A model generated the notes under the pieces. It saw only the letters and a list, made by a program, of their open reading frames with translations, was not told where the DNA came from and did no database searches. From Rhodococcus qingshengii JCM 15477 (GTDB lineage: Bacteria; Actinomycetota; Actinomycetes; Mycobacteriales; Mycobacteriaceae): a stretch of 64,000 nt of DNA. Position numbers and translations under genes: made by a program. This document shows positions 2,878 to 43,511 of this stretch, piece after piece (position 1 is the first letter of the stretch; every line of letters begins with the position of its first letter). Where the stretch lies: contig NZ_CP096563.1 of NCBI RefSeq assembly GCF_023221595.1, positions 2,834,501 to 2,898,500 of the forward strand. Reading direction: 5' to 3'.

Positions 2878-2907
2878 TTCGGGTGATGGACCGCTGATCG
2901 TCACGAA

Positions 2908-2947
2908 AAGACTCTGGGCCCCGGCTGATGCCGGGGCCCAGAGTCTT
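2908..2947. terminator. strong bidirectional intrinsic terminator between acyl-CoA dehydrogenase and lexA
   Basis: An 18-bp perfect stem: the arm 2908-2925 (AAGACTCTGGGCCCCGGC) pairs with 2930-2947 across the 4-nt loop TGAT. The flanks are A-rich on the left and T-rich on the right, so it can end both the dehydrogenase transcript and the convergent lexA transcript. Confidence 0.85.
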
Positions 2948-2969
2948 GTGATCGAGGGTGCGAGCGAAC

Positions 2970-3698
2970 TCAGATCTTCCGCATGACCGTGACAACCTTG
3001 CCCAAGATGACGGCGTTGTTGCCGGGAATCGGCTCGAAGAGGTCGTTGTGCGGCATCAACCACACCTCCTTCTTCGTACGCTTGAACGTCTTCACGGTGG
3101 CTTCGCCGTCGATCATGGCGGCCACGATGTCACCGTTCTCGGCGACGTTCTGCTGACGGACGACAACCCAGTCGCCATCGCAGATCGCTGCATCGATCAT
3201 CGACTCACCGACAACCTTGAGCATGAAGAGCGAACCTTGGCCGACGAGCTCGCGGGGGAGTGGAAACACATCCTCCACAGCTTCCTCGGCGAGGATCGGT
3301 CCGCCGGCAGCGATGCGGCCCAGGATGGGGACGAACGCCGGCTCTGGCAGCGGGTCGGCACTGTTGTACTCGCCGGAATGCTTCGACACCGACGCGATGG
3401 CGGTATCGGCCGCAACCTCGTCGAGACCCCGAACATCGACTGCACGAGGGCGATTGGGATCGCGTCGAAGGAAGCCCTTGCGCTCCAACGTTCGCAGTTG
3501 ATGCGCGACCGACGACGTGGAGGTAAGCCCCACCGCATCCCCGATTTCGCGAATGCTCGGCGGATACCCGCGCTCCGTCACCGAATCGCGGATCACTTCG
3601 AGAACGCGCCGCTGACGCTCGGTGAGCGTCTCGCTCGACGGAGACGGAACTGCAGAAGCTCCTGCCTCCGCGGCTGTGCTGGAGCGATCGTCCTTCAT
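2970..3698 (-). CDS. lexA: SOS response transcriptional repressor LexA
   Basis: A 242-residue LexA (actinobacterial LexA is about 220-240). The N-terminal winged helix (residues about 24-90) contains [21 protein letters not shown], the recognition region. The C-terminal S24 peptidase domain has the Ala131-Gly132 self-cleavage bond (GRIAAGGP), nucleophile Ser166 in VVGESM and general-base Lys203 in EATVKTF. It represses DNA-damage genes until RecA filaments trigger autocleavage. A promoter and an SOS box lie at 3897-3937, so it is very likely autoregulated. The leader carries unusual tandem repeats. It is divergent from the LysM gene, as in M. tuberculosis lexA/Rv2719c. A GGAGG lies about 10 nt before the ATG. 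Confidence 0.97.
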
Positions 3699-3712
3699 GG
3701 CCTGTTGCCTCC

Positions 3713-3770
3713 GTGTCTGAAGAAGTCGTGTCTGAAGAAGTCGTGTCTGAAAAAGTCGTGTCTGAAAACT
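3713..3770. repeat. 15-bp tandem repeat in the lexA leader, 3 full copies and a partial fourth
   Basis: On the plus strand the unit is GTGTCTGAAGAAGTC at 3713-3727 and 3728-3742, then GTGTCTGAAAAAGTC at 3743-3757, then a partial copy GTGTCTGAAAACT at 3758-3770. In the lexA mRNA it reads as repeated TTCAGACACGACTT units, the last of which runs directly into the GGAGG ribosome-binding sequence. It is adjacent to a second imperfect repeat (CTGCCTGCAAAA, GTGCCTGCAAA, GTGCCTGG) at 3769-3799. Confidence 0.9.
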
Positions 3771-3896
3771 GCCTGCAAAAGTGCCTGCAAAGTGCCTGGT
3801 GCAAGTCGCGCAGAAACCTGTCGGTGCCTCCTGCCAACATTCGAGCTGTCGACAAACACGGAGGCTTTCGCAATTCCCGCTGTGTGGTCTGACACG

Positions 3897-3925
3897 AATC
3901 TAGCCGGATTTGCTCGCGGTTTCAA
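3897..3925 (-). promoter_or_regulatory. lexA promoter
   Basis: Read on the minus strand: -35 TTGAAA (3920-3925), exactly 17 nt, then -10 TAGATT (3897-3902). This is a good housekeeping-sigma match. It predicts a transcription start near 3890 and a lexA leader of about 190 nt that contains the tandem repeats. The SOS box at 3922-3937 overlaps the -35. Confidence 0.7.
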
Positions 3926-3937
3926 ACATCTGTTCGA
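3922..3937. promoter_or_regulatory. LexA operator (SOS box) 1
   Basis: TCAAACATCTGTTCGA differs at one position from the actinobacterial SOS box TCGAAC-N4-GTTCGA. It overlaps the lexA -35 hexamer, the expected place for autorepression. Confidence 0.8.
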
Positions 3938-3985
3938 TTCGTGTCGCTCCAAGTAGAGACATTGTCGGCCAGGCGTGGTAGAAAT

Positions 3986-4001
3986 TCGAACATGCGTTCC
4001 A
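3986..4001. promoter_or_regulatory. LexA operator (SOS box) 2
   Basis: TCGAACATGCGTTCCA has one mismatch to TCGAAC-N4-GTTCGA. It lies 51 nt upstream of the LysM gene start, where it would control the divergent SOS cell-division gene. Confidence 0.75.
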
Positions 4002-4017
4002 TCGAACGCATGATCGA
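4002..4017. promoter_or_regulatory. LexA operator (SOS box) 3
   Basis: TCGAACGCATGATCGA has one mismatch to the SOS consensus and directly abuts box 2 with no gap, so two LexA dimers could sit side by side (center-to-center 16 bp). Confidence 0.65.
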
Positions 4018-4051
4018 ACACATCGATCGGTGTCGACCAGCGGAGGTCACG

Positions 4052-4705
4052 ATGGGTAACGCAGCACTGAAAAGCAACAGGGTTTTCGACGACGCGATTG
4101 GTTTCGACGCGTTTGGTTTCGACGGTACGTCGGCACTGAAGTACCACCCCTCGTTCTATGGGCCCGATGCAGACGCTGTGTCCTTCGAACGGCGCGGAGC
4201 GGCCGAAATGCATGGCGTGGCCAGGGATGTCGACAACGAACCGCAGGCGGCCGTCGTTCGCCGGGTTCCGGCGGTGGGCGCGGTTTCAGGTTCGCGTTCA
4301 TTGCGCGAATCTCCTCGCCGGTGGGACAGCGAGCACGATTCGTCACGCCCGTACGGAGGAAGTTTCGCGCACCGAAACAGGGTCGGTGTGTCACGGGTCG
4401 AACATGAAGTGGCCGCCGAGGATGTCAGTTGGAAGACGGTTTTCCTGGGCGCCGTATTCACCGCATTCGCAGTGTTGGCGTTGGTGGGGATCGGCGCATT
4501 GTCGAGTGGTGACGTAGCTGCGACAAACGGCGCGACCGAAGTGGTTCGCGTTGCCGCGGGTGAATCCCTCAGTGATATTGCTGCCAAGGTTGCACCTGGC
4601 CAGGCTGTCGGTTCGGTGATCGAGCAGATCATGGATCTCAATGCGATGTCGAGTTCCGGACTGTTAGTGGGACAAACGCTGATCGTGCCGGCCTCGGGGC
4701 GCTGA
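4052..4705 (+). CDS. LysM-domain membrane protein, SOS-linked cell-division regulator (Rv2719c/ChiZ type)
   Basis: A 217-residue protein with a hydrophilic, low-complexity N-terminal half, one transmembrane helix (about residues 131-154, [20 protein letters not shown]) and a C-terminal LysM peptidoglycan-binding domain starting [18 protein letters not shown] and ending VGQTLIVP. This is the layout of M. tuberculosis Rv2719c (ChiZ), and the position between lexA and nrdR is the same; C. glutamicum DivS plays the equivalent role. Inference: it delays septation or trims the wall during DNA damage. ATG 4052 is supported by GGAGGT at 4042-4047 and by the two SOS boxes upstream. Whether the N-terminus has hydrolase activity cannot be judged from sequence. 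Confidence 0.85.
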
Positions 4706-42152: not shown

Positions 42153-43511
42153 CTAGTCGAGGTAGTCGCGCAGAACCTGCGAACGCGACGGGTGGCGCAG
42201 CTTCGACATCGTCTTCGATTCGATCTGGCGGATACGCTCACGCGTGACGCCGTAGACCTGTCCGATTTCGTCTAAAGTCCTCGGCTGACCGTCGGTGAGA
42301 CCGAAGCGGAGGCGAACCACGCCGGCTTCGCGCTCGGACAGCGTCTCGAGTACCGACTGCAGCTGATCCTGCAGCAAGGTGAACGAGACGGCATCGACTG
42401 CGACAACAGCTTCGGAGTCCTCGATGAAGTCACCGAGCTGGCTGTCGCCCTCGTCGCCGATGGTCTGGTCGAGAGAGATCGGCTCACGCGCGTACTGCTG
42501 GATTTCCAGCACCTTCTCCGGCGTGATGTCCATTTCCTTGGCGAGCTCTTCCGGCGTGGGCTCACGGCCCAGGTCCTGGAGCAGCTCACGCTGGATACGG
42601 CCGAGCTTGTTGATGACCTCGACCATGTGCACCGGGATACGGATGGTGCGAGCCTGGTCGGCCATTGCGCGGGTGATGGCCTGACGGATCCACCACGTGG
42701 CGTAGGTCGAGAACTTGTAACCCTTGGTGTAGTCGAACTTCTCGACTGCACGGATCAGACCGAGGTTGCCTTCCTGGATGAGGTCCAGGAACGCCATACC
42801 GCGGCCCGTGTAGCGCTTGGCCAGCGAGACGACCAGGCGGAGGTTGGCCTCGAGGAGGTGGTTCTTGGCGCGGTTGCCGTCGCGGCAGATCCAGCTCATG
42901 TCGCGTCGCTGAGCCGCAGGCAACTTCTCGCCCTTGTCAGCGAGGTCCTGCATGATCTGCACGGCGTAGAGGCCGGCCTCGATGCGCTTGGCCAGTTCGA
43001 CTTCCTCTTCGGCGTTGAGGAGTGCGACCTTGCCGATCTGCTTGAGGTAAGCGCGAACCGAGTCGGCGGACGCCGTCAGTTCGGCATCCTTGCGTGCCTG
43101 ACGGAGAGCCTCGGACTCTTCCTCGTCCCAGACGAAGTCGCCGGAAGCCTTGTCCTTCTCGGACGGCTCTGCAGCGGTCTCTTCGTCTTCGCCGACTGCT
43201 ACGACCTCGACGACATCGGACTCGACCTCGGCAAGGTCGCCGTCCGTGATGTCGATGTCTTCCAACTCGACATCGCCGTCTTCGGCGTCAGGATCGCCGG
43301 CCTTCTTGGGGCTGGCCTTCTTAGCTGCTGCCTTCTTGGCCGGAGCTTTCTTGGCCGGAGCCTTCTTTGCTGCTGCCTTCTTGGCGGGGGCCTTTTTCGC
43401 CGGAGCCTTCTTGGCTGCCGGAGCGGTGACGGTGGCCGCCTCCACGGCTGGAGATTGTGGCTCTGACTCTGATGGAGAATCAGCAGTCTGACGTGTATCG
43501 GTGGCTGCCAC
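42153..43511 (-). CDS. sigA: principal RNA polymerase sigma factor SigA (HrdB/RpoD type)
   Basis: 452 residues. After [21 protein letters not shown] comes a Lys/Ala/Pro repeat region (about 30-70, [19 protein letters not shown] units) and an acidic stretch, as in actinobacterial SigA. The conserved sigma core follows: [16 protein letters not shown] (1.2), [48 protein letters not shown] (2.1-2.4, longer block) and [20 protein letters not shown] (4.2). It directs housekeeping transcription. GTG 43511 follows AAAGGG by 6 nt. Downstream of ppgK on the same strand, as in mycobacteria (Rv2702-Rv2703). Confidence 0.96.
43320..43425. repeat. lysine/alanine codon repeats in the sigA N-terminal region
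   Basis: Within sigA, the sequence encodes about eight KKA(P/A)A units from GCC/GGC-AAG-rich, partly identical 12-15 bp segments. On the plus strand the visible repeated piece is CTTCTTGGCCGGAGC and its variants. Confidence 0.7.

Follow-up and report, generated by a model that had tools for sequence, protein, structure and literature searches.

The lexA leader of Rhodococcus qingshengii JCM 15477 carries a tandem array of 15-bp units, one of 41 arrays that sequence comparison across the genus places around the divergent lexA-divS promoter, a place that stays constant while the repeat unit is replaced between lineages. lexA sets how readily cells begin their damage and mutagenesis programme, and the pattern across the genus holds more interest than this one array. 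We favour, at about even confidence, a recent and lineage-specific origin: the array would be a minisatellite, one outcome of a hotspot at which tandem duplications recur over ~300 bp on either side of the SOS promoter. We observed enrichment of arrays at this locus, many unrelated units, filtering by reading frame, and copy-number differences between close species; that the birth rate of duplications is itself raised at lexA-divS is what we infer. Positions below are those of the window, the whole 64,000-nt stretch of DNA analysed.

The lexA leader of R. qingshengii JCM 15477

lexA (2970..3698, minus strand) was identified by its TIGR00498 profile match (264 bits against a cut-off of 111) and Pfam LexA domains. 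Divergent from it lies a LysM-domain gene (4052..4705, plus strand; PF01476, 35 bits), considered divS-like by position and domain; its match to the YneA-family profile NF010723 (29.8 bits) is under the cut-off of 60. The motif TCGAACAGATGTTTGA (3922..3937, minus strand), which we take to be the SOS (LexA) box, overlaps a predicted lexA promoter, TTGAAA-17-TAGATT (3897..3925, minus strand), from which transcription is expected to start near 3890. The resulting predicted leader of 192 nt agrees with the 190 nt predicted in an earlier sequence-only reading of the locus. The spacing from SOS box to -10 is 19 nt in 26/26 Rhodococcus genomes, and the lexA -10 hexamer is TAGATT in 24 and TACATT in 2 of them. 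Given this upstream promoter and its constant spacing, the array is predicted to lie inside the lexA mRNA, as the earlier reading had supposed.

The 15-bp array (3712..3766, minus strand) was called by Tandem Repeats Finder (TRF) with period 15, 3.7 copies, 97% matches and a score of 103. On the lexA strand, three 15-mers are followed by a fourth, partial copy that merges with the Shine-Dalgarno sequence, running into GGAGG 9 nt 5' of the ATG at 3698; both TRF and the splitting into units thereby bear out the original description of three full copies and one partial copy up to the ribosome-binding sequence. The second, shorter repeat family described next to it was likewise recovered (3765..3798, minus strand), as ~three copies of 11–12 bp: TRF gave 2.9 copies of period 12, with an alternative call at 3758–3798 of period 11 and 3.6 copies. 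In an alignment of five leaders, only R. qingshengii JCM 15477 among the five close relatives has this shorter family. On the other side of the promoter, a 15-bp in-frame array (4084..4124, plus strand) lies where the divS-like gene encodes its N-terminal part.

None of 60 mononucleotide shuffles of the lexA leader matched the score of the 15-bp array. Of the 231 intergenic regions predicted in 464 kb of this genome, seven score at least 80, the lexA leader region among them in third place, so arrays of such strength are uncommon yet not unique. A 23-nt array pattern with up to 3 mismatches had three matches in the 7.5-Mb genome, all overlapping within the lexA leader array, and by this criterion the 15-bp unit has no occurrence elsewhere in the genome. 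Rfam returned no family at cut-off within 2900–4200, its two weak matches both lying downstream of lexA, and a search of open-access papers by title and abstract opening found no lexA leader array.

Copy number among close relatives

We compared five close genomes, one per species, in which lexA DNA is 94.4–97.8% identical: R. qingshengii JCM 15477, G010, G017, G025 and G016. The first 85–90 nt of the leader are nearly identical in all five; the array differs. Units were split by expression and by eye. The 15-bp unit occurs four times in R. qingshengii JCM 15477, four times in G010 and twice in G017, three genomes with 100% identical LexA proteins; G025 and G016, with LexA proteins 99% identical, have a related unit of 17 bp in 4 and 3 copies, respectively. 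A stricter count of a 9-nt core with one mismatch gave 4, 4, 2, 3 and 2 copies. The variation in copy number anticipated from the single sequence therefore exists between close species and, as unit number differs in an otherwise nearly identical leader, these close genomes exclude a fixed block conserved in all relatives. Elsewhere in the genus, three genomes (G003, G004 and G021) have an unrelated 17-bp unit in 3.8 to 5.8 copies, and further Rhodococcus lexA leaders have units of 13, 14, 16 or 19 bp.

Arrays around the lexA-divS SOS box across the genus

Our genus set comprised 28 Rhodococcus genomes, 26 with lexA, the two without it being 74% and 75% complete. Across these 26 the lexA promoter is conserved and the leader ranges from 58 to 207 nt, measuring exactly 66 nt in seven genomes. 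Half of the leaders (13/26) contain an array (TRF score 46 to 163) and the other 13 score <30; in each array-bearing leader, 0/60 shuffles reached the array score. For comparison we used windows of the same size as the test windows, taken from 464 kb of the R. qingshengii JCM 15477 genome and from 20-kb lexA neighbourhoods. Counting both sides of the SOS box (lexA leader, divS leader and divS N-terminus), 21/26 genomes had an array scoring at least 60 no more than 300 bp from the box, compared to 9/163 neighbourhood windows and 7/200 own-genome windows (Fisher p 2e-16, kinship ignored). The corresponding counts were 22/26, 14/163 and 16/200 at a score of at least 50, and 11/26, 3/163 and 3/200 at a score of at least 80. 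Taken apart at score 60, the lexA side had arrays in 13/26 genomes and the divS side in 14/26.

Intergenic regions gave a similar comparison in 25 of the 26 genomes (G013 left out; the window, coverage and family counts use all 26): lexA-divS regions had such arrays in 14/25, compared to 6/257 other regions, with kinship ignored and with control gene calls from a codon-usage script and no published gene finder, so that some control regions are perhaps mis-called. Other divergent regions had them in 1/74 and other regions of at least 200 bp in 2/57. A coverage profile anchored on the SOS box (arrays of score at least 50 and period 8–45, in 250-bp bins) showed 14.7% and 13.4% array coverage in the two bins at the box, 1.5% in the following bin on the divS side, and no more than 6.6% in the remaining bins out to 9 kb. 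From +250 to +2000, a stretch that includes most of lexA, no bin had any coverage. The 41 arrays counted around the box in the 26 genomes fall into ~27 unit families under our own clustering rule, applied without a tree, a number that would be too high if old arrays decay fast. Array units are unrelated between Rhodococcus clades.

Period and reading frame of the arrays

Within divS coding DNA, the array period is a multiple of 3 in 15/15 cases. Eight of these belong to one 18-bp family and three to another, so the independent support for the frame rule is 6/6 families. Periods that are multiples of 3 occur in 3/15 lexA leader arrays and 1/8 divS leader arrays (4/23 for the leaders together). 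Of the three arrays left from the 41, a 15-bp one falls within the lexA coding sequence, a 21-bp one (G022) covers the lexA start, and the third is a divS-side array whose start could not be placed. Judged by period and position, duplications seem to arise regardless of frame and to be removed afterwards where a protein would break; such a filter fits a mutational source combined with selection and argues against a function for the sequence of the unit as such. In G022 (L134), the 21-bp duplication spans the ribosome-binding region and the lexA start codon, giving two possible lexA starts in tandem.

Other SOS genes and other lineages

We scored 600-bp windows at three other SOS genes of the genus. 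Loci that were incomplete, were second copies or came from incomplete genomes were left out, which gave 26 loci of 28 for each gene. Arrays reaching score 60 occurred at dnaE2 in 1/26, at ruvC in 0/26 and at recA in 6/26 (p 0.008 vs 9/163, kinship ignored); at recA, three arrays separate the SOS box from the gene and the other three are upstream of the box. recA is thus a weaker version of the lexA-divS pattern, and dnaE2 and ruvC are without it. Of 15 other exact SOS-box sites in the R. qingshengii JCM 15477 genome, 0/15 had an array reaching score 50 at a distance of up to 250 bp, and one site had an array of score 46. Since arrays are few at dnaE2, ruvC and these other boxes, they are not a property of SOS promoters generally, and we rejected a general SOS-promoter effect.

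The recA upstream regions of five erythropolis-group genomes (L194–L197 and L200) have a 16-bp array between the SOS box and a putative RecA-NDp-like element. Counted by eye, this array has 5 copies in G017, 3 in G016, 3 in G010, 2 in G025 and 2 in G000. These numbers run roughly inverse to those of the lexA array, perhaps by chance as only five related genomes are involved.

For wider lineages we took the best 80 of 567 confirmed loci and removed three that duplicate genomes of the genus set, leaving 77: 44 mycobacterium-like, 22 Nocardia, 8 other Rhodococcus, 2 Prescottella and 1 Speluncibacter. The distance from -10 to lexA start was measured in 76 of these best-ranked loci (Speluncibacter left out) and was at most 12 nt, with a median of 7, in 44/44 mycobacterium-like loci; with the start codon so near the -10, their lexA is predicted to be leaderless. 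Mycobacterial lexA likewise has the same type of SOS box and -10 ahead of the gene; what sets Rhodococcus apart is the predicted leader. Still among the best 80 of 567, array coverage at the box is ~1% in the 44 mycobacterium-like loci, 1.7–1.9% in the two bins at the box in Nocardia, 3.3–5.3% in those bins in the eight other Rhodococcus loci, and zero in the two Prescottella and one Speluncibacter loci. In the mycobacterium-like loci of this sample, arrays cover 9–12% at +1000 to +1500 from the SOS box, downstream of lexA.

Origin of the arrays

Under the hotspot explanation, stretches of 12–19 bp, sometimes 30, would duplicate head to tail near the divergent, strongly inducible lexA-divS promoter, and new duplications would then grow and contract through slippage. 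Arrays would survive where harm is small, in both leaders and, when in frame, in the divS N-terminus. A raised birth rate might come from divergent damage-induced transcription through negative supercoiling, topoisomerase I or stalled forks; the near-absence of arrays at dnaE2, ruvC and the 15 other exact SOS boxes of the R. qingshengii JCM 15477 genome argues against such transcription as the sole cause. A precedent comes from E. coli with altered topoisomerase I: head-to-tail duplications of 2–19 bp are reported in topA mutants, independent of pre-existing repeats, and the authors mention supercoiling and R-loops (PMC6954433). That case is a mutator strain affected genome-wide; in Rhodococcus one natural locus would be involved, through a proposed mechanism. 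The 13/26 lexA leaders without an array at a score of at least 30 speak against the hotspot, as does the kinship among the genomes counted.

The strongest competitor, doubtful though still to be taken seriously, is a merely permissive region in which duplications arise at an ordinary rate and survive because the long leaders and the divS N-terminus are little constrained. It would explain why arrays are missing where constraint is high, as in most of the lexA coding DNA, why they are frame-filtered in divS, and why the predicted leaderless lexA of mycobacterium-like loci (44/44, among the best 80 of 567) has ~1% coverage. However, other intergenic regions of these neighbourhoods, which should be just as free, carry such arrays in 6/257 cases, and in 2/57 of those measuring at least 200 bp. 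If constraint were relaxed and births no more frequent, the picture would resemble that of the hotspot.

A more far-reaching version of the hotspot, which we think improbable, makes the lexA-divS SOS promoter a self-targeted hypermutable site, where damage-fired divergent transcription would provoke short tandem duplications in the leaders of the master repressor lexA, the division inhibitor divS and, less so, recA; in the erythropolis group these leaders would feed a two-state RNA switch over the lexA start site. If true, the damage response would keep rewriting its own control leaders.

Bacterial minisatellites (VNTRs) and simple-sequence contingency loci likewise have, upstream of a gene, head-to-tail units whose number differs between close relatives. 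In Rhodococcus, by contrast, the unit itself is swapped between lineages at a constant place, and the comparison is between species. With recurrent repeats beside lexA and the unit replaced per lineage, the genus offers a natural leader series for asking if repeat number affects SOS, and the lexA-divS locus is a place for studying the birth of short tandem duplications outside mutator strains. If the arrays are neutral, they caution against reading function into arrays of this kind.

Predicted structure of the leader RNA

In the erythropolis group, the leader is predicted to contain a 5' arm, GCCTCCGTGTTTG (3853..3865, minus strand), complementary to the Shine-Dalgarno region, where the final repeat copy and the ribosome-binding site together form the matching arm CAGACACGGAGGC (3707..3719, minus strand). 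The duplex is predicted at -25.5 kcal/mol in R. qingshengii JCM 15477, the strongest among 127 sampled leaders of that genome (next -23.1), and the 13-bp pairing recurs in 5/5 erythropolis-group genomes at -24.0 to -25.5 kcal/mol, with 0/500 dinucleotide shuffles as strong in each. A comparable arm is absent from the other 21 genus leaders (0/21; lowest count 63/500 shuffles). The predicted unpaired probability of the Shine-Dalgarno is 0.00–0.04 in the five clade leaders vs 0.20–0.83 in the other 21.

The 5' arm can alternatively pair with an internal GGAGGC (3826–3831) in a predicted local hairpin (3810..3880, minus strand; z -1.4), as well as which 20/200 shuffles fold. In growing-transcript folds the arm sits in this local hairpin until the Shine-Dalgarno is made and then shifts there in 4/5 genomes, so that two mutually exclusive folds are predicted in silico; in the full-length fold of G017 the arm is back in the local hairpin and the Shine-Dalgarno is not closed. 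The whole leader is no stabler than shuffles (z -0.38), and the five-sequence consensus fold is the local hairpin: among five similar sequences, two-sided changes occur in 0/46 pairs, while 4 local-hairpin pairs vary one-sidedly, with one cell broken. These folds lend modest support to an RNA switch by which the erythropolis-group lexA leader may hide or expose its ribosome-binding site, and in this clade the array is the spacer of the predicted arm/Shine-Dalgarno structure. Translational leaders with an anti-Shine-Dalgarno arm and an alternative hairpin are similar in that an arm either covers the ribosome-binding site or sits in another hairpin, as the 13-bp arm is predicted to do; they differ in that the Rhodococcus arm occurs in one clade only and no covariation was seen in the five sequences.

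We consider it unlikely that leader copy number is selected as an adaptive dial setting LexA output and with it the SOS threshold, the tuning idea of the sequence-only reading. Such a dial would be in keeping with the variation in copy number between close species and with the variable leader array, in the erythropolis-group clade, of recA, the other SOS hub. Predicted access to the Shine-Dalgarno, however, is nearly flat, with an opening cost of 10.7 kcal/mol at one unit and 7.8–8.8 kcal/mol from 2 to 9 units; tuning by unit number through start-site access is therefore not supported. Units are also unrelated between clades, and half of the leaders have no array.

Still less probable is an RNA switch with repeat decoys, in which the repeat copies would rival the Shine-Dalgarno as partners of the 5' arm and so delay its closure. 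The 13-bp arm, with its consistency across the clade and its rank among the sampled leaders, fits such a switch, and every repeat contains CAGACACG, which matches part of the 5' arm. Yet the earlier copies capture at most 0.03 of the arm in growing-transcript folds, the arm staying in its local hairpin, and we rejected decoy pairing as negligible. The consensus fold with its lack of two-sided change, the unremarkable z of the leader, the unclosed Shine-Dalgarno in the full-length model of G017 and the absence of the arm in other clades also count against it.

The earlier reading had offered protein or sRNA binding to the repeated RNA, to which we give a slighter chance again: identical, spaced copies could serve as multiple sites, and the unit is unique to the lexA leader, but units change in both sequence and length from clade to clade, so that a conserved site is not supported, and Rfam gave no family at cut-off in 2900–4200. 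Finally, a coding role, whether in a leader peptide or in an extension of LexA at its N-terminus, was rejected as highly improbable: an ATG is present at leader nt 50–51 in 5/5 clade genomes and reads in frame into lexA in two, but its frame relative to lexA varies (1, 0, 0, 2, 0), a stop precedes lexA in one frame-0 case, and the 17-bp units do not preserve frame.

Additional observations in the R. qingshengii genome

Two exact SOS boxes outside the lexA region, L189 on contig C5 and L188 on contig C3, lie beside ORFs. The L189 ORF matches ImuA' (NF058630, 176 bits against a cut-off of 65), a plasmid-borne mutagenesis factor, and the L188 ORF is similar by eye. Over 3,016 bases the L189 contig shows 100% identity with two plasmids, NC_007491.1 of R. 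erythropolis PR4 and one from Rhodococcus sp. 008. Among the 15 other exact SOS boxes, eight (L174, L175, L177, L180 and L184–L187) directly precede ORFs of ~434–451 aa with a common N-terminus of the MSVLLSDVVSGSAVGLRGRLWQL type, by eye a multicopy family, perhaps 13E12/HNH-like. Lastly, the top-scoring tandem repeat of the window, at 43315–43418, has a 45-bp unit and a score of 159 and looks like lysine/alanine-rich coding sequence.
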